The translations under genes were made by a program, and so were the position numbers. A stretch of DNA of 64,000 nucleotides from Arcanobacterium ihumii (GTDB lineage Bacteria > Actinomycetota > Actinomycetes > Actinomycetales > Actinomycetaceae), in NCBI RefSeq assembly GCF_900604515.1, contig NZ_UWOS01000003.1:124001-188000 (forward strand), written 5' to 3'. The stretch's first letter is position 1; each line of letters starts with the position of its first letter. The notes under the pieces are model-generated. The model was given only the letters and a program-made list of their open reading frames with translations, searched no databases and had not been told where the DNA came from. Positions 5,900 to 48,084 of the stretch are shown here, piece after piece.

Positions 5900-6910
5900 T
5901 TAAGCCATTCGATCAACCATGGCATGAGCAAAAGCCTCCAGCGCCTCACGAACCTCACCCTTAGGTACGCTCTCAAGCTCAGCGAGGGCTTCATCGATCC
6001 ACTGATCTGCCAGTGCACGAGTCTCAGCTACAACCGGGTGCACGCGCAAACGGGCGACGACGTCGGGGAGGTTTTCTTCGTTTAGGTCATCTGAATCAAG
6101 AAGAGCAAGAATTTGTGTGCCTTCTTCATCAAGCGTTCCGTCGTGTTGGCGCTTGCGCAGAAGCAGAGTCGGCATAGTCGAAACGTTTTCAAGAAGATCC
6201 GTTCCCGGGGTCTTTCCGGTGAGTTCCGGCTTCGAAACAAGGTCGATAACATCGTCTGCAAGTTGGAATGCAACGCCGACTTTTTCACCGAATTGGGCAA
6301 CGGCTTCGGCTAGTTCTTCCGAACCACCTGAAGACAGCACGCCATAACGCGCTGCCGCAGCAATCAAAGATCCCGTCTTATCAGCAAGAACCTGGATGTA
6401 GTGATCAATCGGATCATCGTTGTCACGAGGACCAACTGTTTCATGAAGCTGTCCAACACAAAGGCGCTCGAAAGTCGTGGCGTGAAGCAAAACCGCACGC
6501 GGTCCGAGCTTAGCCACAATGGAAGAAGCGCGAGCAAACAGCACGTCTCCAGCCATAATCGCCGATGAATTTCCAAAGATATATTGCGCAGACGGCACTC
6601 CGCGGCGTAACGGAGCTTCATCCATGACGTCGTCGTGATACAACGACGCAAGGTGGGTAAGTTCAACCACCAAGGATGAATCATCAACCGCTTGGTTCAG
6701 CGGATCCGGTCCAAGCTCTGAGGTAAGGAGGCAGAGCACTGGGCGCAACCGTTTACCACCGGCCACGGCAAGGTGAGACGTCGCAGCATCTACAACGAGG
6801 TCATCGATACGGACGACGTCCTGAAGTTGGGTTTCAACGCTGTCGAGTCGCTTCGATAGACGCGAACCTAATTCGCCATGGCCGGCAAGTAAATCGGAAA
6901 ATGCATTCAC
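5900..6910 (-). CDS. Long-chain polyprenyl diphosphate synthase
   Basis: A 336-residue trans-prenyltransferase that elongates isoprenoid diphosphates, here most likely making the menaquinone side chain. GGKRLRP is at 51-57, the first Asp-rich motif DDVMD at 93-97 and the second DDVID at 219-223. The residue five before the first motif is Ala (ASLYHDD). A small residue there fits long (above C20) products, whereas short-chain synthases carry an aromatic; this is a family rule, not a measurement. The start overlaps the nuoN stop (6907-6910, ATGA type), so it is translationally coupled to the complex I operon. Confidence 0.93.
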   Translation of the reverse strand: MNAFSDLLAGHGELGSRLSKRLDSVETQLQDVVRIDDLVVDAATSHLAVAGGKRLRPVLCLLTSELGPDPLNQAVDDSSLVVELTHLASLYHDDVMDEAPLRRGVPSAQYIFGNSSAIMAGDVLFARASSIVAKLGPRAVLLHATTFERLCVGQLHETVGPRDNDDPIDHYIQVLADKTGSLIAAAARYGVLSSGGSEELAEAVAQFGEKVGVAFQLADDVIDLVSKPELTGKTPGTDLLENVSTMPTLLLRKRQHDGTLDEEGTQILALLDSDDLNEENLPDVVARLRVHPVVAETRALADQWIDEALAELESVPKGEVREALEAFAHAMVDRMA

Positions 6911-35814: not shown

Positions 35815-36297
35815 CTAGTCTTCTTCGGTTTCCTTGTGTTCGACGATAAACTTTGAGTTAATGCGTCCCAACTCCACAAGCTCTTCCTTCGATATCAGAT
35901 CGATGAAATGACGGCGCACCGATTCTACGTGCGATGGCGCAGATTTCTGAAGCTTCTTAAACCCAGCTTTTGTGAGCTTGCAGTTAATTCCACGTCGATC
36001 ATCAGCACAACGGAATCGCTCAACGTAGCCTTCGCTCTCGAGGCGACGAACCGTATGGGTAAGTCGCGAGCGCGAGTGGACTAGGTTTTCCGCGAGGTGC
36101 GACATTCGCAAAACATGCCCCTCAGCCTCACTTAGATGTACGAGAACCTCATATTCATTCAATGCAAGACCGTTATCATCTTCCATATCCTTATTAATGA
36201 GGTCAAGCAGAGTCGCCGTTCCGCGCAAAAATGCCCGCCATGACATCTGTTCGTCGTCATCTAGCCAACGAGGCTCGTCACATGCTGTCGTCTTCAT
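35815..36297 (-). CDS. MarR-family transcriptional regulator
   Basis: About 160 residues from ATG 36297; a TTG 18 bases upstream is possible. The winged helix spans roughly residues 45-115 with LRMSHLAENLVHSRSRLTHTVRRLESEGYVERF and the wing DRRGINCKLTKAG. It has no obvious sensor domain; family members usually bind phenolic or oxidant signals at the dimer interface. It follows the pilus operon on the same strand. A perfect inverted repeat lies 26 bases upstream of its start, suggesting autoregulation. It is a candidate regulator of the pilus genes, by position only. Confidence 0.88.
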   Translation of the reverse strand: MKTTACDEPRWLDDDEQMSWRAFLRGTATLLDLINKDMEDDNGLALNEYEVLVHLSEAEGHVLRMSHLAENLVHSRSRLTHTVRRLESEGYVERFRCADDRRGINCKLTKAGFKKLQKSAPSHVESVRRHFIDLISKEELVELGRINSKFIVEHKETEED

Positions 36298-36322
36298 CGG
36301 TATTCTCAACTCCAATAATCAT

Positions 36323-36351
36323 TGAAAATTCCACTATTTATAGAATTTTCA
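36323..36351. promoter_or_regulatory. Inverted repeat upstream of the MarR gene (operator candidate)
   Basis: TGAAAATTC at 36323-36331 and GAATTTTCA at 36343-36351 form a perfect 9-base inverted repeat whose half-site centres are 20 bases apart, about two helical turns. It lies between the sortase stop (36372) and the MarR start (36297). The A+T-only centre makes a terminator less likely than an operator. Confidence 0.5.
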
Positions 36352-36371
36352 TCCAATCTGGTGATTGATAC

Positions 36372-37289
36372 TTACGGCATGCTTTCCTTCTTCGGAGCGG
36401 CTAACAACGGCTCTGAACTGCTATTATCGCGCTTTTTCCGACGCAATGCGCGGATCAACAAAAATAATAATACAAGACATACCAAGATGATATCTAGGAT
36501 CATCCACCAACTCAGACTCGGCGTCCATCCACTTTCACTTGATCCACTGTCTGCAGGAACCCTAATCGCTTCGACCAACAGGCGATCTGTATTAATCCCA
36601 TACGGAGTACAAGTGACCAAAACCACCTTATCTTTATCAGTCTCATAGGTAATTGCTCGATAGTCATCAGGACCAACCACTTTACGAGACTTAACCTTAT
36701 AATGCAGAGTTTCATCGAGAATATCGATATAGACGTCGGCGCCTTCTTTAATGAAAACAAGATTATCGAACATGGAGGCATTGACCATACCCGTATGGGC
36801 AGAAATAACCGACGTGGTTCCTAATCCACCTACTGGAAGATCTGAACCAAACATATGCCCTGCTCCACGGTACAAAACTTCTGACGACGTTGTATGAAAT
36901 ACAGGTAAATCGATTTTACTTTGAGGAATTCTGATACGCGCCATAACATCTGCGGTCTGTGGCACCTGCAGAGTATTCATGTATCTTTCATAACCCGGAT
37001 CGCTTGAAACCGGAGGACGTGCATGATGCCCTTCTTTCGCAAGCTGCTCATTGTATAATCGCGCCTCTGTCCAATATTTCTGCAACTGCGACTTTGGCCT
37101 GATGTTATCTACAGCTCGAGAGTACATCTGTGCTTGTTGCACGATCTGGTAATCGTTATAGAGAGTCGCTACAACCGGATATAGAAGAATCAACAAACCA
37201 ATAAGAATCCAGGTAAACCCAGTTTTACGTTGATTTTGATTCTTTCTTTTTCGATCACTCAAAGCATCAGCATCCACTACTGCAAACAC
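36372..37289 (-). CDS. Class C (pilus) sortase, distal copy
   Basis: A 305-residue transpeptidase. An N-terminal membrane anchor spans about 27-43, followed by an extracytoplasmic sortase fold and a second membrane segment near the C-terminus with a basic tail. The catalytic His is in ISAHTGMVNASMFDNL, the Cys in VLVTCTPYG and the Arg in INTDRLLVEA. A DP element (SSDPGYERYM) matches the class C lid position, but the usual aromatic after DP is Gly here. The GTG or ATG start region overlaps the end of the giant surface-protein gene. It is the last gene of the pilus operon. Confidence 0.9.
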   Translation of the reverse strand: MFAVVDADALSDRKRKNQNQRKTGFTWILIGLLILLYPVVATLYNDYQIVQQAQMYSRAVDNIRPKSQLQKYWTEARLYNEQLAKEGHHARPPVSSDPGYERYMNTLQVPQTADVMARIRIPQSKIDLPVFHTTSSEVLYRGAGHMFGSDLPVGGLGTTSVISAHTGMVNASMFDNLVFIKEGADVYIDILDETLHYKVKSRKVVGPDDYRAITYETDKDKVVLVTCTPYGINTDRLLVEAIRVPADSGSSESGWTPSLSWWMILDIILVCLVLLFLLIRALRRKKRDNSSSEPLLAAPKKESMP

Positions 37290-40200
37290 CTATAGGTCTG
37301 AAGTTGTAGCTGAATCATCATCGTCGTCATCACGGTTCTTCCACAAACCATAAACAACCACCCCAACACCGGTTAAGATCACAACTACCAGTGAAATAGC
37401 TCCAGCTTGCGGCAACGACATCCACACTCTTTGTGCACCAAAACTATCAGAATCAGAAACCGGCAAACCGTTTGCAAAAGCCGAAACAGTAACCGCACCT
37501 TTAACATCAACGAGTGATTGCTGAGGTTCGTCCAATTGAACAGTAAACGTACATGTTAGCGCCTCGTTCGGCTGCATCGTATAGCCGTTGGCATTATCGA
37601 TACCACAGAACATCGGATCAATCGTACCGTCAGAGCCGACGACAAGCGTTTGCCCGTCTTTCGTAATTGTCCTTCCCGCTAAGGATGGATCCTTTAAAGA
37701 GAAAGTATCAACTGGCAGTCCACCATTATTTGTCAAAGCATAATGCACCACCATTGACGTCGCATAAGGATTCAATACAACGCTGTCTCCTGCAGGAAGC
37801 AAAGCGCCGTCAATCGTTTTTTCGATATCAATTGCGGGATACCGGTTAGCAAGGGTTAACGACCAATATGATCCGGACTGCGACAAATCATTTGGGTCTG
37901 TAACCGGCGCGACGGTGAATTGAGAATAGTGCTTTGCTGGCTCCGTATCAGTAGCAGGAGTATTCGTAGCCACGGCATCGACTATTCCATCCCCTTGTGC
38001 ATCAACTCCAAGTTGAGGGGCAACAGAAGCCGTTTGTGATATCTCATTAATGATACAAACACGGTTAACTGGAACACCCTTAATGGTAAATGACTCTCCC
38101 GCCTTAATTGTGTGCGTTATTCCATCAGCCAAGCAGTCAGAACCAAATGTAAACGAGGACCCATCGGCAACTGCTCCATAAGATGTCTTTGTAACGGACA
38201 CGTCTACTGTATCTTGCAGATATACAGCTTGAGCGCCAACAGTCATTGCTACATCGGAAGTCGTAGTTAAATCGGGAGCGATTGTAAATGATCGCGAATA
38301 CGACTTCATATCCGTCGTGACCGAATTTGGCGCTATATCACGCCAGTTTTGAGTTGGGTTCGAGGCATCTGGTCCCGTGGCTGTCCATGTTCCAAATCGC
38401 ATGAACGGAGAACGACTTCCTGCTGTGACTTCAAGTTGGGCGCTAGGGGCAAGTGAAGCACTTCCTCCATAGTTAATAGAGCAATCACTACCAGCCGGCA
38501 ACTGCAAGACCTCTCCAGAACCTGGAGCTCCTTGACTGGCCACCGAGGAAACCACCAAAGCGTTATTAAACAAGACCGTATTTGTTATTGAAGTCTTTGC
38601 CGGATCATTACAAGTCACTGTGTAGGTATATCCTAGGCCAGATGAATCTTTGATGGCTCCTTCAATATATCCCGCGTGCATCGTAGAAACCCTAACAGGA
38701 ACCATCCTGCGCGTATAGTGATTGACGAAATCCCACGACTGCGTAGCCGTAGTATTCTCAACTCGCTTGGTAATAGTTTGCTGGTCCACTTTCCATTCAA
38801 GCTGGCTTGGAGTTCCCACCGGAGCGCTCTCTTTAACTGTGCAAAGAGATCCGGCAGGTACCATTGCTTGATCAGAGACAAAAGAATTCGTCTGTTTTCC
38901 TGGGGTGTCCGAAGTAGAGATGCTAAGTTGCGAGTAATTCAATAGCGTTGGAAGCGTGGCACCGGGTTGTCCCATTGATGATGAGGAATAACCCACTGCT
39001 TGGCACTGGTACGAGAACTCAAATTGCTGGTTCTCGGACAATAAAGCCAGATCTTCGATTGAGCCTTCAACAGCCTTACTCATTTTCACAGGAGTCATGA
39101 TGTATTCGTAGGTATTTTCAATATCTACAATATTCGAAATCGATCCATCAGAACCGTTATCGAGTGTATTGAAATAATTTGACTCAGTAACATCATTAGG
39201 AAAAGTTGTATCAATTACAGCAGTACCATCATTTTTATCAACAACCCACTTAACCTGTTTAGGTTTTAAGTAAGCTTGCAACTGGGTTCCATCTGGATTA
39301 GTAAGATTAAGATTTAGTGGGCCAAAATGGTCACCCGCGATATGGCAATCTACGCCAACTGGAATCGAATCAAATTGGTATGTTCCTTCACCAGTAATCG
39401 TGCCATTAAAGGTTCCTAACAATGCACCCGCAGAGCCATCCCCTGTTTCCGGATCGTGACAATCCATAGAAAATTGGTGAGTATGGAGTGGAATCTCGAC
39501 GCCACTTGCCGAATACTGGTCACGAATTGAACCCGGAAGAACAGCGCGTTTATTCAACACAACCGGAGCCAAGCGACGCGAATAAGTATTTGTAATAACT
39601 GCCGAATTGGAATCTTTTTGAACGGTAAAGTTCGCCGTCACATCACTAACTGACCCGTTATTAACGGATATCTGTTGCTTGACGTCAATCCCAGTCGCGG
39701 TTGTTGTTGCACCTTCAGAAATTGAGCAGGTAGATCCTACAGGTAGTTCACCAAGGTTAATTGCAGGTTTCGTGGAAACAATTGTTCCAGATGCAGTGAA
39801 TTCTGTAACGCCGTCTGGATATAGACACTCAAGGGAAACTGAGAATTCACGATTCCGTTTTATTTCTTTCCTCGCATCAGAAATATATTGTTGAGTTGCA
39901 GGATCAAACGCAACCACTTTCGAAGCGGAAATTGAACTTGAAACGTATGCATAGTAGAAGTTCATCTCGACGACGGTTGCACTACCAATTTTAATTGACG
40001 AGGCATTTATCTGCGCCAAATTTCCGTACATCAGGTTTAGTTCAGGATCCGTTTGGGTGGCTGCAACATGCATGCCAACGCTTCGAGATATTGGGTAGGT
40101 ATTACCACTGGTTGCTTGCCGCGTGCCTGGATCGGCAGAAGGCTCAACAACCGTGCAAGAACTCCCTTCTGGAATTTGTGAAGCAGGAATTGTTACAGAA

Positions 40201-43142
40201 GGAGTTGTTTTACTTAACGAGACCGTGGAATATCGAGGTTCAAGAACCAGCGGTGTTCCATTTGAATCTTTACAAGCAACATTTAAATTAACCGGAAGAG
40301 CTAGATTATTCCACGATACTACGCGACTTTGAATTGTTAAACCATTTCCTGCAGCAGTGAACGTATTGGTAATCGTCTTCGCAGTATTAGGTGCAGAAAC
40401 AGTAAACTTCTGCGCTTCGACATCCGAACTCCACAAAACCCCCGAAGTTGATATCTGTGGCACATCTTCGCTAAAAGTACAGGTATTGGCATATGGTACT
40501 CCCATGTATCCACTTTGGTCATTAACCTTAGGATCGAGCACCGAGTCCGTAACCTGAGCCTTTAGTTTAAGAGTCTGTCCTTCTGAGATCGCCACATTTC
40601 CTACCAGGGGAACAGAAGAAGTACTACCATCCGAATTCACTACTGTTCGTGTTCCGCAATCAAAATTAATAGAGAAGGACGTAGGCAAACTGACGGTTAT
40701 TCCGTTTTTATTCACAATCTTGGAGAGATCAACCGTACCGAGCTTGTAATCATAGGTATTCGTAACTAATACACGGTTTTGGCTACTATCGAGAGCCGCT
40801 GAGACCTTCATTATAGGTTGTGTTTTAGCATCATCGTTAGTCTTCACAACGGTAACATCATTAGCATCGGTAAACGCCAACTTTGTTCCAGTCAATATGG
40901 TATTTGGATTTTCCGGAACAGCATCTTCATAAATAAGGCAGCTAGCGTCAACCGGTACCCCTTTTATAAGTGAAGGGTTACTTGTATCAGTTGTTATGTT
41001 GAGCGAACCGGCAAGAGAATACTGCCCGCTTGATCCCCAGGTGCATTTATACTGAACAGGAAATGTTTTCCCAATTAAATCGTTTGAACCTGCTGCTGGT
41101 CCCGCATACTGCTTGATAACTTTAACATCGCGAAGTTGGTATGCGTAAGTTGCGTCAATGTGCATCGCGCTAGCAGTGGGAGTTCCACCTTGCGGATAGT
41201 CAGCCAATTTAAAAGAATATGATCCATCAGAGTTTTTAGTCACCGAAGTTCCGTCAATGGTTACAGTGCGCCCCACAAACGTGTACTTTTTCGATTCCGC
41301 ACTTGATAAACCTGTCAGGGGTGTTAGTTGACACTCATGCTCCACAGGTATATCCGTAATGTTCACTGACCCAGAATAGACCGTGCCACTAGGATTTATG
41401 TCAAAACCAATTGTTTTATTTTGTACGGTGGTTCCCACACACGTCAATGAAAAATCGTAGTGGCGTGGGTAGGCAAACTCAGATACTGGATCACCCAAAA
41501 GGCTCTTACTCAAAGACAGGCTACCTGCTCGGTACGTATAGTTATTATTAGCACTCACATCTGAGGTGGTAGCCAGCGTGGTATTGAGGTTAGGCAACGT
41601 GGCAGTATCTTGAGTTCCGCCTTTCCACGTTAAATTTAAATTGATTCCGGGAGGTGTAGCCTGAATTCCACTAGGAAACGTTTCGCTCATTTTACACGAT
41701 GTTCCAAATGGAAGATTGGTGATGCTTTTCGATTCTCCAGCCTTAACAGTCGCTTTCCCACTCAGAGGAATCGAAGGATATGCTTGTGCAAAACTATCAT
41801 TGCTGCACACATAATTGAGTTCAAATGTACGTCCCGAGATCTCATTAAAACTAGCAGCATTACCGTCAAGGGTTTTTCGTAGATTTAATACCGACGGTTG
41901 GAATCGACTCTTCCAATCCACCGAGCAATCAAGTGGTTCATCGTTGATATTAACTGCCCTTAAAATTGACCTATGCGTTGCGGAGTCATAAGTTAAATCG
42001 TACCCAGACGGAAACGGTTTGCCTTCCTCAATTGTTACAGGAGCATTGTTTCCAGCATTACACGTCCACACGGGATTATACCGATCATGCGCGTATTGAG
42101 CATCAGCACCCGAAGCAGTTGATGTAAATACTTGGGTGTCTTGTGGGGTAAGTGTACTGGAATACGGACGATTATAGACACTAAAAGTGCCATCGTTCGT
42201 CTTGGGGATAAGAGTATCCGTTGTACCAACACGACTAAACATTTGATGGTCAAAACTTGTAGCTTGGCCCGTCTCAGCCATTTCATACGAAGTGTCAGCG
42301 GTTGCTTTTCCTGCCACGCGACCAATAGAAATTGCAAGTGCAAACCCGTTCCAAGCACCAACACCTGCATATTTTTCGATTTGAAACTGTGTAGGAGAAT
42401 CTATAGTCGCAACCGCGATACCTTTGATAGTTTCAGAAGTTCTATAACCCTGGCAGTAAAAGTCTCGATTTGAATAGCGCGTATAATTACAAGGATCCGC
42501 AAATCCTGGTTGCACTACTTTATTCAAGGTAGTTTTATTCGTGGTTGTGTCATTATCTGTGATTGACCATGACTCTGTACCTGGAGAAATCTCCGCATCG
42601 AGCACGTTCAGCTTGAAGTAAGATAATTGCTTCCCTGATGAGTCCGTTAGTTTAATGTTCGAAAAATTAAAATAATAATTTGTTGGCCAATGCGATGTCT
42701 TCACGATTGGACTCTGCGCATCTCCTGAGTATGGTATGAAAGTTCGGTAACCGTTTGTTTGTCCAAAAGATGCAGTGCTATCCCACTGAGATGAAACCGC
42801 TGTCACACTCGGCGAACCAAGCCCTGAAGTAGTCCAGCTCAAATCAAACTGTAAAGTCATATCGCCAATTTTGCGAGTATATGTTTTTGTTTGGTTCGGT
42901 GCAGAAATCAAACCCGTAAAATCGATAAAACAAAAACTGTTTGCTTCATCAATCGCTGCGCCGTTACCGATACGCATAGCACAGTCACCGAGATCGTAAG
43001 TTATCGCGGCAGCAGCTTCAGCCTTTTCGTTATTTGGACTCCACGGAGATACGGGTAATAACAGAACGATGACGAATACGAAACTTAAAAAGGTCGCCCA
43101 AGCTTTCACTCTCAGCGATTGAATTTTATTGCGTTTTAGCAT
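37290..43142 (-). CDS. Giant LPQAG-anchored modular surface protein, probable pilus tip adhesin
   Basis: About 1950 residues from ATG 43142, chosen for its GAGGTGA ribosome site; the open frame runs 47 codons further up. A signal segment spans 11-31. A unique N-terminal head (about 45-415) has three Cys pairs. Ten tandem modules follow, each about 140 residues (418-1770). Each starts with a K-containing strand (LRK, LSK, VIK), has a Cys, then a second Cys in a C-x-x-x-E segment, and ends in an NTY-like strand; this is a DUF5979/CnaB-like pattern. A final conserved-repeat-type domain (1771-1900), LPQAG at 1910-1914, a membrane segment and a tail with six Asp complete it. Module names are recalled, not searched. 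Its start overlaps the preceding pilin gene by 17 bases. Confidence 0.88.
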   Translation of the reverse strand: MLKRNKIQSLRVKAWATFLSFVFVIVLLLPVSPWSPNNEKAEAAAAITYDLGDCAMRIGNGAAIDEANSFCFIDFTGLISAPNQTKTYTRKIGDMTLQFDLSWTTSGLGSPSVTAVSSQWDSTASFGQTNGYRTFIPYSGDAQSPIVKTSHWPTNYYFNFSNIKLTDSSGKQLSYFKLNVLDAEISPGTESWSITDNDTTTNKTTLNKVVQPGFADPCNYTRYSNRDFYCQGYRTSETIKGIAVATIDSPTQFQIEKYAGVGAWNGFALAISIGRVAGKATADTSYEMAETGQATSFDHQMFSRVGTTDTLIPKTNDGTFSVYNRPYSSTLTPQDTQVFTSTASGADAQYAHDRYNPVWTCNAGNNAPVTIEEGKPFPSGYDLTYDSATHRSILRAVNINDEPLDCSVDWKSRFQPSVLNLRKTLDGNAASFNEISGRTFELNYVCSNDSFAQAYPSIPLSGKATVKAGESKSITNLPFGTSCKMSETFPSGIQATPPGINLNLTWKGGTQDTATLPNLNTTLATTSDVSANNNYTYRAGSLSLSKSLLGDPVSEFAYPRHYDFSLTCVGTTVQNKTIGFDINPSGTVYSGSVNITDIPVEHECQLTPLTGLSSAESKKYTFVGRTVTIDGTSVTKNSDGSYSFKLADYPQGGTPTASAMHIDATYAYQLRDVKVIKQYAGPAAGSNDLIGKTFPVQYKCTWGSSGQYSLAGSLNITTDTSNPSLIKGVPVDASCLIYEDAVPENPNTILTGTKLAFTDANDVTVVKTNDDAKTQPIMKVSAALDSSQNRVLVTNTYDYKLGTVDLSKIVNKNGITVSLPTSFSINFDCGTRTVVNSDGSTSSVPLVGNVAISEGQTLKLKAQVTDSVLDPKVNDQSGYMGVPYANTCTFSEDVPQISTSGVLWSSDVEAQKFTVSAPNTAKTITNTFTAAGNGLTIQSRVVSWNNLALPVNLNVACKDSNGTPLVLEPRYSTVSLSKTTPSVTIPASQIPEGSSCTVVEPSADPGTRQATSGNTYPISRSVGMHVAATQTDPELNLMYGNLAQINASSIKIGSATVVEMNFYYAYVSSSISASKVVAFDPATQQYISDARKEIKRNREFSVSLECLYPDGVTEFTASGTIVSTKPAINLGELPVGSTCSISEGATTTATGIDVKQQISVNNGSVSDVTANFTVQKDSNSAVITNTYSRRLAPVVLNKRAVLPGSIRDQYSASGVEIPLHTHQFSMDCHDPETGDGSAGALLGTFNGTITGEGTYQFDSIPVGVDCHIAGDHFGPLNLNLTNPDGTQLQAYLKPKQVKWVVDKNDGTAVIDTTFPNDVTESNYFNTLDNGSDGSISNIVDIENTYEYIMTPVKMSKAVEGSIEDLALLSENQQFEFSYQCQAVGYSSSSMGQPGATLPTLLNYSQLSISTSDTPGKQTNSFVSDQAMVPAGSLCTVKESAPVGTPSQLEWKVDQQTITKRVENTTATQSWDFVNHYTRRMVPVRVSTMHAGYIEGAIKDSSGLGYTYTVTCNDPAKTSITNTVLFNNALVVSSVASQGAPGSGEVLQLPAGSDCSINYGGSASLAPSAQLEVTAGSRSPFMRFGTWTATGPDASNPTQNWRDIAPNSVTTDMKSYSRSFTIAPDLTTTSDVAMTVGAQAVYLQDTVDVSVTKTSYGAVADGSSFTFGSDCLADGITHTIKAGESFTIKGVPVNRVCIINEISQTASVAPQLGVDAQGDGIVDAVATNTPATDTEPAKHYSQFTVAPVTDPNDLSQSGSYWSLTLANRYPAIDIEKTIDGALLPAGDSVVLNPYATSMVVHYALTNNGGLPVDTFSLKDPSLAGRTITKDGQTLVVGSDGTIDPMFCGIDNANGYTMQPNEALTCTFTVQLDEPQQSLVDVKGAVTVSAFANGLPVSDSDSFGAQRVWMSLPQAGAISLVVVILTGVGVVVYGLWKNRDDDDDDSATTSDL

Positions 43143-44379
43143 TTCCGTCACCTCTTTCTTCTGTCGTTTCCTCATTGACAATTTGTAATTCCCTATCAGA
43201 TTGAATGCGCTGCGCCTCATTATCACGTTTTCTTCGAGCCACAATGAAAAAGAGCGCTCCAATCGCCACGAGTATTGCTGCACACATAAGTATTTCTTTT
43301 ATGTATGCTCCGGTTTTAGCCAAGATTACAGAAATGGCCGACGACGTGCACCCAGTGGGCGGGCACACACAACCTTCCTCTGGGCACTGTGGTGATGTAA
43401 CCACTGGTTGTGAGACCACTGAAATATTCGCCACATCTGTAGCAGTACCTGCTGCTCCCACGACATTGGCAGTGTCCGCCCAACCATCTGGGAACAGCTG
43501 AGCAGTATTTTTAATTATTTGCTCATCTGAAACATTGCTATCCACTATCGATTGCAATTTAATATGCACTGCAGTTTGTGGGGCGGATAAACGCATTCGA
43601 GCGAGCTTCGCTAAGCCTTGGTTAGTTAACTTGATCGTCACGGTATTCAAATTCGGATCAAATACCACAATGTAGTCTATGTTTTCCGTTAATGTTTCCG
43701 AAGAATTTCCATCTGAAATTACAACGCTAGAAACGCCTTGATATTTGAGCGCAGAATCAAGTTTGCTCGTAACTATATAAGTATGCAGGCTACCGTTCAC
43801 ATCCGGAGCCGGAACATTTGCCTGGATATCCCATTGCACTGGTTCACCTGGAGTGACTCGAGAACTTGGATACGGCGTAATTTTGATCGATAACGGCTGA
43901 TTTTTCGCGTACACTCTTAGGGATTTGTTTCCATCGTCGCGAGTAATAGCCATGTCAGGCACTTCGATAAGAAATGGGCTGATAACCGTATAAGCAACAT
44001 CTCCAACACGCGACGGAATTTCCCTCACTAAATATGTAGCGTCGGGTAACCGCGAAAACAGTGCATCACCTTGGGAATTTGACACTGCTTTTATGGGCGT
44101 TCCCAGCTGATACCCATGAAGGTACGGATTCGTTTTCATCTCTGCTACGAGCGCATCATGATCCGAAGCACGTGAATCTAATACCGGGATAGCTTCAAAA
44201 GAAATCCCTTCCAATGGAGTGCCAGGCGTGTCCCCTTCACCAAGCGTTTTATGGATTGAAACGTCAGTTCCACCATCCGCAAACGATAATGTGGCCGGAA
44301 AAGCAACAAAGAGAAACGCAAATAAAAAACAGCTAAAAGCAAAGGCAATAACTCGTATTGAGCCTGCTCTGTTATACAT
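43126..44379 (-). CDS. LPXTG-type pilin with LAKTG signal (second pilin)
   Basis: About 417 residues from ATG 44379, which has a perfect AAGGAGG site; the frame is open 21 codons further up. A signal peptide ends near SFADGG. A CnaB-like N-terminal domain (VSIHKTLGEG ... LEGISFEAIPV) carries a Lys and a later VREIP Glu of isopeptide type. A pilin-motif-like LRVYAKNQ is present, with Ala where shaft pilins have Pro. An isopeptide-forming shaft-like domain follows. A Cys-rich segment (CPEEGCVCPPTGC) precedes LAKTG, a membrane helix and a basic tail. It may be a minor or basal pilin; its position between a sortase and the giant protein supports that. Confidence 0.85.
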   Translation of the reverse strand: MYNRAGSIRVIAFAFSCFLFAFLFVAFPATLSFADGGTDVSIHKTLGEGDTPGTPLEGISFEAIPVLDSRASDHDALVAEMKTNPYLHGYQLGTPIKAVSNSQGDALFSRLPDATYLVREIPSRVGDVAYTVISPFLIEVPDMAITRDDGNKSLRVYAKNQPLSIKITPYPSSRVTPGEPVQWDIQANVPAPDVNGSLHTYIVTSKLDSALKYQGVSSVVISDGNSSETLTENIDYIVVFDPNLNTVTIKLTNQGLAKLARMRLSAPQTAVHIKLQSIVDSNVSDEQIIKNTAQLFPDGWADTANVVGAAGTATDVANISVVSQPVVTSPQCPEEGCVCPPTGCTSSAISVILAKTGAYIKEILMCAAILVAIGALFFIVARRKRDNEAQRIQSDRELQIVNEETTEERGDGNAKTQ

Positions 44380-45277
44380 TTTCCGCCTCCTTCTTTCTAA
44401 CCACATTTTCTTCTTCAGTGTCTCGATCTTTTTTCTTTCCAAACATCCACCACAAAATGTAGAGCAAGGTCAAAATTGAGATGGTTAAGGCCGCGATCAT
44501 CCATGGCTGCCAAGGACTTGAATAGACTTGCTCAATCGGTCCTTTAGGCAGTTCAACTCGCTCTCCACGAACCAATAGCCTGTGACTATTGATTCCATAA
44601 GGCGTACAAGTCACGAGTGTAATCAAATCTCGGCCATTTTCTGGACGAACATTTTGGATGTCGTTTGGGAGCACTTTTTTGATCTGATCTACTTTATATG
44701 CGTGCTGTTCCCCTAAGATTTCCACAATGAAAATCTCACCCTCTTTTATATGGGTCAGATTATCAAACATCGTGAGCGTTGCAAGGCCAGTATGACCGGT
44801 AAGCACGGAGTGAGTTCCTGCACCGCCGACTGGCAACGCTGTTCCATAGAGATGACCGATACCGTGAGCAAGTGTAGCTTGAGACGTTCCGTGGTAAATC
44901 GGTAAATCAATCCCCACCGAAGGAACCTTTAACCGACCCATCACCGATTCAACATTAAGCTGCGCCAAATATTTTTTATACGCATCCGTACTAGTGTCTA
45001 TTCCATTTACCCAAGGATCAGGAGAGCCTACAGGAGGAAGTTGAGCGTTATACGCTTTAGCTTCCTCCATAAGAGCAGTTTTTTGCTCTGGCAACATCTT
45101 TTTGACGTTTTCCGAATAGCGTTGGGAAATTTGGTTTTGCTCTACATTTTTTACGTGTGTGATGACAACCGGTGAAAGAAGAACCAGAACTCCGAGTAGC
45201 AAGTAAATAACAGATCTCGGGTTACGACGACGGTTACCCACCTTCGTCTTTGTTCTTGTTTTCTTGTCCACCAACAT
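44372..45277 (-). CDS. Class C (pilus) sortase, proximal copy
   Basis: About 301 residues from ATG 45277. The frame is open to 45331, but that would place the start inside an intergenic hairpin, so a start after the hairpin is more sensible. It has an N-terminal membrane segment (VIYLLLGVLVLLSPVVITHV), a class C lid motif DPW (GSPDPWVNG), catalytic His in VLTGHTGLATLTMFDNL, Cys in TLVTCTPYG and Arg in NSHRLLVRG, then a C-terminal membrane segment. It would polymerise the shaft pilin encoded just upstream. It overlaps the next pilin gene by eight bases. Confidence 0.92.
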   Translation of the reverse strand: MLVDKKTRTKTKVGNRRRNPRSVIYLLLGVLVLLSPVVITHVKNVEQNQISQRYSENVKKMLPEQKTALMEEAKAYNAQLPPVGSPDPWVNGIDTSTDAYKKYLAQLNVESVMGRLKVPSVGIDLPIYHGTSQATLAHGIGHLYGTALPVGGAGTHSVLTGHTGLATLTMFDNLTHIKEGEIFIVEILGEQHAYKVDQIKKVLPNDIQNVRPENGRDLITLVTCTPYGINSHRLLVRGERVELPKGPIEQVYSSPWQPWMIAALTISILTLLYILWWMFGKKKDRDTEEENVVRKKEAENV

Positions 45278-45293
45278 CACCAGATTAAGGAGA

Positions 45294-45328
45294 TGTGGTT
45301 GGGGCACCACGTGTACGCCCCAACCACA
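45294..45328 (-). terminator. Intra-operon hairpin between shaft pilin and sortase
   Basis: TGTGGTTGGGG (45294-45304) pairs perfectly with CCCCAACCACA (45318-45328), an 11-pair GC-rich stem beginning eight bases past the shaft pilin stop. The following minus-strand sequence (TCTCCTTAAT) is only mildly T-rich. It fits a leaky terminator or RNA-processing site that would make shaft pilin more abundant than the sortase and minor subunits. Confidence 0.6.
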
Positions 45329-45335
45329 CAATTAA

Positions 45336-46847
45336 CTACGCAGTGGCAGTTTTATTATCACGACGGCTCGTGTAGAAACCACGCGCAAGTAGGGCAAGAC
45401 CGATCAAGAAAATAATGACGATCCCGAAAGCACCTGTTGCTGGTAGTTGACCGAATAATGAGTTCTTCACATTATCTACACTAAGCGAATAGGTGTGCGT
45501 AGCGGCATCCCACGTCTTAATAGGAAGAACTTCTGGGTTTCGAACAAATCCAGTTGGAGCTTTGGTCTCCAAAGCACAGAATTGATTCACAACTGGAGCA
45601 CCATCTGAACCAGCAGAGCTGTATGGAAGACCGTAACCGGTGATGGTGGAATCAGTTGCATTGTCTGCAGTTCCACCAGCGGTTATCAATGTGGCATTCG
45701 TGGTCTGAGGATCCTGCGCTGTTGTGGTTGCAACATTCGAGACAACAAGTGGCGATCCTTGAAGGTCATACTTCCCATCAGAATTTGCATCAGAACACCG
45801 GTAGATTTCAAACGTTGCTCCGTTGAGCTGATCCTTGGTAACACCTGAGGCTGTACTTGTCTTGGTGATCTTGAGATTAGCCAGAATAGTTGCAGTTGCA
45901 CCTGTTTGAACAGAACCGGAGTTTGGAAGCTCAACAGTAGCAGTGTTCTTTACAGTTGCATCAGCAGTCGGAACACTTAAAACCTTAGCCTCAAAGACAA
46001 CTTGGACAGCAAGCGTTGAGTCGCTAACGCGAGCGGTCTGGAGCTTTTGCAAACCCATGGCGGAGAAATTTACACGAAGGGTGTTGGCATCGTAAGTAAG
46101 AGCATAATCCGCTACAGGATCTAGTGTCACAGGACTGGTACCTGTTACCGTCACCTTTGCTGCGGGGGAATTCTGCAACGCTAACTCAGAAATGAGTTGA
46201 TCAACTACGTTGAATCGATCAAGTGTTCCTGCAGGCACAGGAGCTTTAATTGTGTAGGTAAGGTTCTTACCCACGGTAGCCACCGAATCGTTCACCGTTT
46301 TGGTTGGTGTAACATTTTGGTTCTTAGGATAAACGTTAAGATCATACGTCCACGTACCGTTTGCCGGATCAGAATACGGAAGAGTTACGTAAAAAGGTGG
46401 AGCAACTGTATAACCAGTTTTCTGGAGTTCTGTTACACGATACATTGCAACTTTAAAGTTGGTGTTGGTTGCCGTAGAAATCGTCGCTTTACCACCAGCT
46501 GTAGTTACTGTATCGATGTTTGTATAGGTAACGGCAGGGTCATTACCTTTGTCCGCATCCGTCAGCAGTGATGCCGTAGTCCAACCAGCTTGGGTTGAAA
46601 GATCAACCTCATTTACTTTCTCAATCTTAAATTGAGCACCGTCAAGAGGTTTTGCCCCATTCGTAGGAGCAGTCGGAACAGTGTTCGGTGCCGTAGTTTG
46701 GGGATCACCTTCGTACTTATTTATGGTGAGAGAGACGTTATGGTTTACATCCACAACATCAGCGGCAGTCGCCACCTGGATACCAGCCATCGAAAAAGTC
46801 ACAATAAACGCAACAGCGCCAGCAACCCTTTTCTTTAATGTTTTCAT
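45336..46847 (-). CDS. Major (shaft) pilin, SpaH/EbpB-like, LPATG-anchored
   Basis: About 503 residues from ATG 46847, which has a GAAGGA site; the frame extends five codons further. A signal peptide ends near VATAADVV. A CnaB-type N-terminal domain is followed by the pilin motif YDLNVYPKNQ, whose Lys would be the polymerisation residue. Isopeptide-forming middle domains follow, then the E-box CALETKAPTGFV and the sorting signal LPATG with a membrane helix and basic tail. This is the standard set for a sortase-assembled fimbrial shaft. It is the first gene of the pilus operon. Confidence 0.93.
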   Translation of the reverse strand: MKTLKKRVAGAVAFIVTFSMAGIQVATAADVVDVNHNVSLTINKYEGDPQTTAPNTVPTAPTNGAKPLDGAQFKIEKVNEVDLSTQAGWTTASLLTDADKGNDPAVTYTNIDTVTTAGGKATISTATNTNFKVAMYRVTELQKTGYTVAPPFYVTLPYSDPANGTWTYDLNVYPKNQNVTPTKTVNDSVATVGKNLTYTIKAPVPAGTLDRFNVVDQLISELALQNSPAAKVTVTGTSPVTLDPVADYALTYDANTLRVNFSAMGLQKLQTARVSDSTLAVQVVFEAKVLSVPTADATVKNTATVELPNSGSVQTGATATILANLKITKTSTASGVTKDQLNGATFEIYRCSDANSDGKYDLQGSPLVVSNVATTTAQDPQTTNATLITAGGTADNATDSTITGYGLPYSSAGSDGAPVVNQFCALETKAPTGFVRNPEVLPIKTWDAATHTYSLSVDNVKNSLFGQLPATGAFGIVIIFLIGLALLARGFYTSRRDNKTATA

Positions 46848-47392
46848 TTTAGTTTCCTTCACGTGGAATTATTTTGTTCCCTAAGACGATGCCTAAGCAG
46901 AGTGACACCGGCAAACAAAATGCTGTTCGGAAGCATTGAAGCCTAAAAACTCCAATTAACTACGTTTGTAATTTCGTCTTCACTATACAGTCATGATAAC
47001 TAGGGCGCTATACGAATTGGGCTTGTTTTTCACTATATTTACACCAAGAATATTTTAGACAGGTATCCAAAGCGCCCCTCCAAATCGGCATATCTGCATA
47101 TTTTTCCAAAAGGCATCTATCAACAATATATTCATGAACACAAACTTCTCGAGCGTCATATCCATGCTTTAATATATATTTACAGGATGTTTAATTTTTT
47201 ATTATGCATTTTCCTAAAAATGACATAAAGACTATGTAACCAAAAGGTAAAATCAACATTTAAATTTACAACTAAAAACTAATATTTTTTCACCGTTTAA
47301 CTTTTCATGAAGTTTTCAATAATCTTCATGTTTTTCGTGTCACATTTCAAATCTAATGACTCGTCAGTCTTCCTAATCTGCAGACGAAATAC
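46848..47392. other. A+T-rich gene-free region upstream of the pilus operon
   Basis: About 545 bases with no convincing open frame. It must contain the pilus promoter (reading left). A TATAGT hexamer on the minus strand near 46985 could be a -10, but no good -35 pairs with it. CATGAAG (47306-47312) and CTTCATG (47324-47330) form a 7-base inverted repeat, and poly-A/T runs are frequent. The composition differs clearly from the nuo region. Confidence 0.5.
47306..47330. repeat. 7-bp inverted repeat in the pilus upstream region
   Basis: CATGAAG and CTTCATG, 11 bases apart. This is the same half-site spacing as the repeat before the MarR gene, but the sequence differs. Possible regulator site or chance in A+T-rich DNA. 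Confidence 0.3.
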
Positions 47393-47434
47393 AAACAAGT
47401 GGGGACTCCCATTTTTGAGAGTCGCCACTTGTTT
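47393..47434 (-). terminator. Terminator after the bS22-like gene
   Basis: AAACAAGTGG with GACTC (47393-47408) pairs with GAGTC and CCACTTGTTT (47418-47434), giving a stem of about 15 pairs with one mismatch and a T-rich loop. It lies 19 bases past the small gene stop, in the right place to end the regulator/bS22-like transcript. Confidence 0.8.
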
Positions 47435-47452
47435 AAAACGCTTATTCGAAGG

Positions 47453-47551
47453 TCACTTTTTGTTACGACGCTGGTGACGAGTCTTGCGAAGCAATTTACG
47501 ATGCTTCTTTTTCGACATGCGCTTACGACGCTTCTTGATGACGGAACCCAC
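47453..47551 (-). CDS. Tiny basic AURKAIN/bS22-type ribosome-associated protein
   Basis: A 32-residue protein beginning [12 protein letters not shown] and continuing [20 protein letters not shown]. It starts at GTG 47551, five bases after a GGAGG site, and stops with TGA at 47453-47455. More than half of the residues are Lys or Arg. It matches the short actinobacterial AURKAIN-motif proteins identified as ribosomal protein bS22 in mycobacterial ribosomes (recalled). It typically lies beside a BldC-like helix-turn-helix gene, as here. It is easily missed because of its size. Confidence 0.85.
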
Positions 47552-47622
47552 TGGCTACCTCCGGAAGTAATGATGTGAACGGAAAATCCGCTTCGTTTAA
47601 CAAATAAATAATACCCTAAAGC

Positions 47623-47838
47623 CTACGCTCCGGAAACTTCACGGCGCTCGTCCTCAGCGCCACCAGCCAATAGCTGATCGAGAGCGGAACGAGGTACGCG
47701 ATAAGAGCTACCAACACGCACGGCAGGCAGTTCGCCAGCATGAACCATGCGATACACAGTCATCCGAGAAACTCGCGTAATCTCGGCAACTTCAGCCACA
47801 GTAAAAAACTGCGGAGCAGAAGGAGGAAACTGAGCCAT
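47623..47838 (-). CDS. BldC-like MerR-type helix-turn-helix protein
   Basis: About 71 residues from ATG 47838; a TTG 18 bases upstream is possible. It is essentially one winged helix-turn-helix: FFTVAEVAEITRVSRMTVYRM, then AGELPAVRVGSSYRVPRSALDQLL. This is the excisionase/BldC family, which in Streptomyces binds A+T-rich direct repeats cooperatively. It is upstream of and probably cotranscribed with the bS22-like gene, with 71 bases between them. There are no phage genes nearby, so a developmental or housekeeping regulator is more likely than an excisionase. Confidence 0.85.
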   Translation of the reverse strand: MAQFPPSAPQFFTVAEVAEITRVSRMTVYRMVHAGELPAVRVGSSYRVPRSALDQLLAGGAEDERREVSGA

Positions 47839-47932
47839 CCTATTCCGTCCTACCAAGTAAACCAGAGGAATTCTCTAGCAATCCGATGCGTGAAAAGAGC
47901 CCCGTGCCAAAAACCGTGGTGTGTTCCACAGC

Positions 47933-47952
47933 AAATCTCAAAATAAATCTCA
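47933..47952. repeat. Direct repeat upstream of the BldC-like gene
   Basis: AAATCTCA occurs at 47933-47940 and again at 47945-47952, a 12-base period, about 95 bases before the regulator start. BldC of Streptomyces binds head-to-tail A+T-rich repeats, so autoregulation is possible; the period here is slightly longer than described for BldC. Confidence 0.35.
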
Positions 47953-48084
47953 GATTCAATTTCAAGCACGGAAATTCTTTAGCCAGTTTATCCTAATTTT
48001 TCAAAATGCACATAATCCCCATGAAATTCACAAACAACATGGTTCACAGATTTCTCATAACATTGCATTCACCTGAGAAAACAA

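Follow-up and report, generated by a model that had tools for sequence, protein, structure and literature searches.

How are the repeated modules of a giant bacterial surface protein cross-linked, and is the placement of differently equipped modules along such a protein maintained in related species? The question is raised by a gene in a 64,000-nucleotide stretch of Arcanobacterium ihumii DNA (hereafter the window; NCBI RefSeq assembly GCF_900604515.1, contig NZ_UWOS01000003.1, positions 124,001 to 188,000), for which an initial annotation, made from the sequence alone, had proposed a probable pilus tip built from ten modules, some locked by both an isopeptide and a disulfide bond and others by a disulfide only. 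The gene occupies 37290..43142 on the minus strand, within an open frame (37290..43283) that begins at a GTG at 43283; codon 48 of that frame, an ATG at 43142, is the likely start and gives a protein of 1950 amino acids with a likely signal-peptide-like N-terminus, the choice of start and the signal peptide both being our reading of the sequence. The protein is, with good confidence, the tip adhesin of a Spa-type sortase-assembled pilus, in which six modules of the stalk would close an isopeptide bond, modules 2, 5 and 9 would be unable to do so and module 7 is uncertain, and the positions of the complete and incomplete modules are largely retained across two genera.

The ten DUF5979/CnaB-like modules share one plan: the first strand holds a Lys site, two Cys come next, with a Glu site at position +4 from the second, and the closing strand holds an Asn site. 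The sites extend from K423 through N1766, in agreement with the ten repeats initially placed at about residues 418-1770. The Lys, Glu and Asn are all present, together with the Cys pair, in module 1 (41526..41900; K423, C446, C483, E487, N533), module 3 (40740..41138; K677, C700, C735, E739, N795), module 4 (40347..40745; K808, C829, C888, E892, N926), module 6 (39570..39944; K1075, C1106, C1139, E1143, N1185), module 8 (38703..39101; K1356, C1380, C1434, E1438, N1474) and module 10 (37827..38213; K1652, C1670, C1696, E1700, N1766), all ten modules being encoded on the minus strand. A first-strand Lys, a Glu and a last-strand Asn or Asp, as in CnaB domains, are found together in these six modules only. 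The remaining four are incomplete: module 2 (41133..41531; K546, C568, C604, P608, A664) keeps the Lys, its Glu being replaced by Pro and its Asn by Ala, module 5 (39939..40352; S939, C957, C996, E1000, F1062) keeps the Glu and lacks both Lys and Asn, module 7 (39096..39575; K1198, C1228, C1266, G1270, N1343) keeps Lys and Asn and has Gly followed by Asp at the Glu site, and in module 9 (38211..38708; T1487, C1511, C1554, Y1558, Q1638) all three sites are substituted. The initial annotation had listed modules 1, 3, 4, 6 and 8 as complete, to which module 10 is now added; the Glu losses it saw in modules 2, 7 and 9 and the Lys loss in module 5 are borne out, with the additional loss of Asn from modules 2, 5 and 9 and of Lys from module 9. 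Its statement that nearly all modules keep the Cys pair holds and was too cautious, as the pair is present in 10 of 10.

The profile search against DUF5979 (PF19407) that had been proposed beforehand gave a match in Pfam at E = 1.6e-63 (212 bits, cut-off 25) in nine stretches, modules 7 and 9 having no separate match to this family in the genome search. DUF5979 is a published isopeptide family (PMC12617251). When a profile of 30 modules, drawn from the window protein and its two Arcanobacterium relatives (L014 and L015), was searched against PDB, it matched entry 5u5o at E 5.3e-11 with the Lys, both Cys, the Glu and the Asn in register; 5u5o is a solved Mobiluncus domain that carries an isopeptide as well as a disulfide bond (PMC10619420). 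Counted by hand on this alignment, the Lys-Asn distance of 113 corresponds to Lys6842-Asn6955 and the second Cys to Cys6895. The text of PMC10619420 gives Cys6887 as the partner of Cys6895, the aligned chain having its Cys at 6867 instead, and 6887 is taken here as a misprint for 6867. The family match, the register on 5u5o and these two papers agree with the initial description of CnaB-like modules that combine isopeptide positions with a Cys pair.

Conservation of the pattern was assessed in 24 full-length proteins, namely the window protein, the two Arcanobacterium relatives and 21 Corynebacterium homologues. Identity to the window protein is 22-67% among the relatives (22-41% across most of the length for the Corynebacterium homologues), and 17 of the 24 proteins share less than 80% identity with one another. 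No module has lost its Cys pair (240 of 240 kept), and 27 of the 28 cysteines of the window protein are Cys in every protein, C1846 being Cys in 23 with one gap. Complete Lys/Glu/(Asn or Asp) sets occur in modules 1-10 of 23, 1, 14, 23, 0, 23, 0, 24, 0 and 24 of the 24 proteins, respectively. The exact pattern of the window protein is found in 14 proteins (the three from Arcanobacterium, window included, and 11 of 21 from Corynebacterium); eight further Corynebacterium proteins deviate at module 3 alone and two deviate more, L051 at modules 2 and 3 and L054 by being complete in modules 8 and 10 only. Thus, the mixture of complete and incomplete modules noticed initially in one protein recurs among its relatives. 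None of 20,000 within-row shuffles matched the observed concentration of complete sites, a result that is not to be read as a probability because the rows are related. For modules 5 and 9, a Lys lying up to two residues away from the Lys site was found in only two of 24 proteins each; misregister therefore does not explain the loss of Lys. When 170 modules of 17 proteins were aligned with MAFFT, independently of the orthologue alignment, both Cys columns held Cys in 170 of 170 modules, and the counts at the other sites (Lys 122, Glu 113, Asn 110 plus Asp 8) agree with those of the orthologue alignment.

For comparison with the background frequency of incomplete modules, 13 other arrays of the family were picked from strong DUF5979 matches, one of them from the same genome, and scanned with a profile of the modules studied here, which strongly altered modules may escape. 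Among the 190 units so obtained, 15 without the Cys pair were set aside; 13 of the other 175 had the Lys or the Glu unaligned, leaving 162 readable modules, of which 153 keep both residues and nine do not. The 153 have Asn or Asp at the last site in 129 cases, another residue in four and an unaligned position in 20. Incomplete modules thus seem uncommon in these arrays, against four of ten here (Fisher's test of four of 10 against nine of 162, p 0.003, with modules within one protein not being independent). Seven of the nine control modules without Lys or Glu belong to one array, L105 (genome G682), a further mosaic array in which they are seven of 24 Cys-pair modules. The array of the same genome (L071:5867-13945, contig C4) is a second DUF5979 protein of 2692 amino acids with LAKTG in its C-terminus, which retains Lys and Glu in 11 of 12 readable Cys-pair modules.

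Outside the modules, the protein has an N-terminal head (residues 42-418; 41889..43019, minus strand), whose six Cys are each present in all 24 proteins, and a C-terminal domain (37401..37841, minus strand) with Cys1846 and Cys1864, the latter kept in 24 of 24. The sorting motif LPQAG (residues 1910-1914; 37401..37415, minus strand) is followed by a hydrophobic stretch and a charged tail; it is shared by all three Arcanobacterium proteins, LP[DE]TG being found in 19 of the 21 Corynebacterium relatives and LPESG and LPNTG in L045 and L051, respectively. The YPKN pilin motif has no match within the 1950 residues. Pfam searches of the head and C-terminal domain in six sequences gave nothing above cut-off; DUF7507/CLIPPER_2 reached 14.4 bits (cut-off 27) on the C-terminal domain of one of three proteins tested and did not match the window protein. 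No NCBIfam family was found for the giant protein up to E 1, and DUF7601 lies below cut-off at residues 1710-1751 of the GTG frame, inside module 10 (E 0.0084). The head profile found nothing in PDB up to E 10. A search of the whole protein against PDB with phmmer returned 7on8 (a 26-residue stretch, E 6e-6) and 4it7 (E 0.74), both judged unrelated.

The gene is part of a minus-strand pilus operon of the Spa type, which also encodes two pilins and two class C sortases. A SpaH/EbpB-family major pilin (NF033902; 45336..46862) with VYPKN and LPATG is followed by a class C sortase (NF033745; 44372..45331), a minor pilin-like protein with an isopeptide-forming fimbrial domain and LAKTG (TIGR04226; 43126..44442), the giant gene and, downstream of it, a second class C sortase (NF033745; 36372..37289); a MarR-type regulator (35815-36315) also lies downstream. 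The giant protein is thus encoded alongside a major pilin, a minor pilin and a class C sortase, as Spa tip proteins are, and papers on C. ulcerans and C. resistens refer to the third of the Spa subunits in such clusters as the tip protein. When the neighbours at 18 loci were compared by BLAST with the five proteins of the window, a major-pilin relative was present in the same fetched stretch at all 18 and a sortase relative at 17, the remaining locus (L067) ending at a contig border; the five-gene order of the window is repeated at eight. The gene set and its recurrence support the pilus tip suggested initially.

Taken with the module anatomy, the operon suggests how the protein might work. 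The head would point outward on a stalk of ten disulfide-bonded modules, and the class C sortases of the operon would link the C-terminal sorting signal to the major pilin, hence to the pilus shaft. Modules 1, 3, 4, 6, 8 and 10 would close a Lys-Asn isopeptide with the Glu as catalyst, and modules 2, 5 and 9 would be unable to form one. The disulfides would form outside the cell; the host genome encodes VKOR and Thioredoxin_4 proteins, and pilins of C. diphtheriae are reported as substrates of the oxidoreductase MdbA (PMC9974433). With the first and last strands bonded to each other, a pull would by-pass the complete modules, and in modules 2, 5 and 9 it would run through the fold while disulfide loops of 36, 39 and 43 residues stay shut, so that these modules would open only partly and the stalk would have yielding modules set among stiff ones. 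From the topology, we infer that a disulfide inside a closed Lys-Asn loop would bear little pulling load; the isopeptide would therefore set extensibility and the disulfide would only limit it. An extended chain measures 0.36 nm per residue, and modules 2, 5, 7 and 9 have 381 residues outside their disulfide loops; should all four yield, about 137 nm would be released, the folded length not yet being subtracted. A conserved mechanical programme, with stiff doubly bonded modules interspersed among disulfide-limited yielding ones (2, 5, 9 and perhaps 7) that pay out a fixed length unbroken under load, and with module 7 as a possible CnaB variant with a displaced acid, is a further step that we consider rather unlikely as a whole.

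Module 7 stands apart from the other incomplete modules. Seventeen of the 24 proteins have both its Lys and its Asn and seven have neither, with no protein keeping one alone and the Glu being present in none, and such joint retention is not seen for modules 2, 5 and 9. The initial annotation was right about the lost Glu, which is Gly in the window protein; its disulfide-only label is not upheld, because a Lys and Asn that stay or go together argue that module 7 is not simply disulfide-only, and some bond or pairing may persist in it. Given an ancestor with both residues, the joint loss falls on at least three branches (L025; L042; L046/L047/L049) among the 22 less distant rows. A possible, somewhat doubtful explanation is that a different acid, such as the Asp immediately past the Glu site, serves to close the bond in module 7, which would give seven locked modules rather than six. 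It would account for the joint retention and repeated joint loss, and 16 of the 17 rows keeping the pair have Gly at the Glu site with Asp directly after it; however, L045 has the pair with Thr instead of that Asp and L025 has the Asp without the pair, exceptions that weaken the case for the Asp. Against it also, a Glu is typical in CnaB domains (PMC12617251), and adjoining positions of the first and last strands may persist together without a covalent bond.

The incomplete modules could also have arisen by decay, drift having removed isopeptide sites where the disulfide suffices and left positions without function, an explanation that is plausible while falling short of probable. The occurrence of incomplete modules in other arrays is in keeping with it, as is the loss of module 3 by two groups of Corynebacterium proteins and by two isolated, distant rows. 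That none of the four incomplete modules adjoin each other is expected in one case in six by simple counting, which agrees with decay; strict alternation of complete and incomplete modules, also considered, was dropped on this count. Decay fits less easily with the same modules being incomplete at 29-41% identity while modules 1, 4, 6, 8 and 10 remain complete in 23 or 24 of the 24 proteins, and with Pro at the Glu site of module 2 in 22 of 24. Loss before the common ancestor without regain would nevertheless yield the same pattern, and conserved absence alone is thus no proof of function. Residues that lie close to the empty sites speak against too simple a picture: an acid is found within two residues of the Glu site in 21, 20 and 19 of 24 proteins for modules 5, 7 and 9 (five for module 2), and the Asn site has Asn or Asp at most two positions away in 8, 12, 18 and 10 of 24 for modules 2, 5, 7 and 9. 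As for location, the protein might be a wall-anchored fibrillar adhesin or an ancillary pilin instead of the tip subunit. The three Arcanobacterium proteins do carry LPQAG and not LPXTG, and a Mobiluncus giant protein with such modules is described as a wall-anchored adhesin (PMC10619420); yet the gene sits between a minor pilin and a class C sortase, a major-pilin relative accompanies it at every compared locus and the Corynebacterium papers name the corresponding subunit the tip protein, which together make this alternative quite improbable.

Module 9, the only module modelled, was predicted by AlphaFold2 (AF2) as mostly beta with a short helical stretch (predicted local distance difference test score, pLDDT, 62.4); with VIA the model matched 5u5o, Cpa and Spy0128 domains best, at modest Z, a Foldseek search by itself found nothing for it at E 0.001, and an alignment of module pairs gave no invariant columns. 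In all three Arcanobacterium rows, Thr replaces the Lys of this module and Gln its Asn; Thr and Gln are the pair that is cross-linked in ester-bond domains (PMC10619420). An ester bond in the incomplete modules was considered and rejected, the HxDxxDxxQ ester motif being absent from the 1950 residues and the Corynebacterium rows being without the Thr/Gln pair.

The giant protein was found in three of 10 Arcanobacterium genomes searched, the present one included, and 42 of 201 genomes of a Corynebacterium sample gave matches; one Corynebacterium jeikeium record holds a full relative with the same operon. In a phylum sample queried with a Corynebacterium protein, two of 396 genomes match, one being the present genome, and a plasmid collection gave no match up to E 1e-5. 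Thirty Corynebacterium loci were fetched and 21 kept (frame longer than 1900 amino acids, no stop inside the match); the nine excluded have an internal stop in the giant gene (L028, L044), have shorter frames (L038, L040, L043, L048) or were unused (L050, L052, L053). The tree, rooted at its midpoint and with the long branches L051 and L054 uncertainly placed, nests the Arcanobacterium proteins with support 96/96 among those of Corynebacterium, next to L025 and L026, a placement suggestive of transfer from one genus to the other. The G+C content is 0.44-0.45 over the pilus operon (window 36001-48000), lower than in the remaining 4-kb bins of the window (0.48-0.53), and this, together with the nested position, suggests acquired DNA.

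The DUF5979 isopeptide family, the presence of a disulfide and an isopeptide in one domain and the Spa tip proteins are already known, and a pilin domain without an isopeptide has been described in SpaA D1 (PMC4014117). What appears new, on the sequences compared, is that complete and incomplete modules keep a fixed placement in two genera and that module 7 retains its Lys and Asn jointly; no description of either, the former in corynebacterial tip proteins, was found in the available text of the literature covered, which includes PMC12617251, PMC11389406, PMC7244523, PMC10619420, PMC3164646, PMC3350403, PMC8235330, PMC9974433 and PMC4014117 and mostly leaves subscription journals outside. Isopeptide bonds are reported to make CnaB pilin domains inextensible (Spy0128, as told in PMC12617251), and the same modules being bond-free across two genera would suggest selection on the placement of cross-links itself. 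The pattern predicts which modules would open, and how far, in single-molecule pulling, and the family supplies natural examples of CnaB-like domains apparently folding with a disulfide but no isopeptide, which would help to separate the share of each bond in stability.

Several described adhesins and pilus subunits lend themselves to comparison. The head, modelled by AF2 at pLDDT 62.0, has as its best, weak structural match the N-terminal adhesin region of S. gordonii Sgo0707 (4igb), with a template-modelling score (TM-score) of 0.27 by query and a root-mean-square deviation (rmsd) of 10.4 over 245 residues at 7% identity. SpaC of SpaABC and SpaF of SpaDEF in Corynebacterium are, like the window protein, large sorted proteins without a pilin motif, accompanied by a major pilin, a minor pilin and pilus sortases; Spa-type tip proteins end in LPXTG whereas the window protein has LPQAG, and the names SpaC and SpaF are taken from papers, none of the relatives compared here being identified as one with a proven tip position. 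Cpa/Spy0125 of S. pyogenes (4bug, Lys610/Glu680/Asn715), a DUF5979 template, shares the Pfam match and the Lys/Glu/Asn arrangement, and differs from the protein described here, in which four of ten modules are incomplete and every module has a Cys pair. The giant adhesin of Mobiluncus mulieris differs in having ester-bond domains and a predicted thioester head (PMC10619420), and its domain 47I (5u5o, 5u6f) resembles the present modules in bringing together, within one module, the residues for a Lys-Asn isopeptide and for a disulfide.
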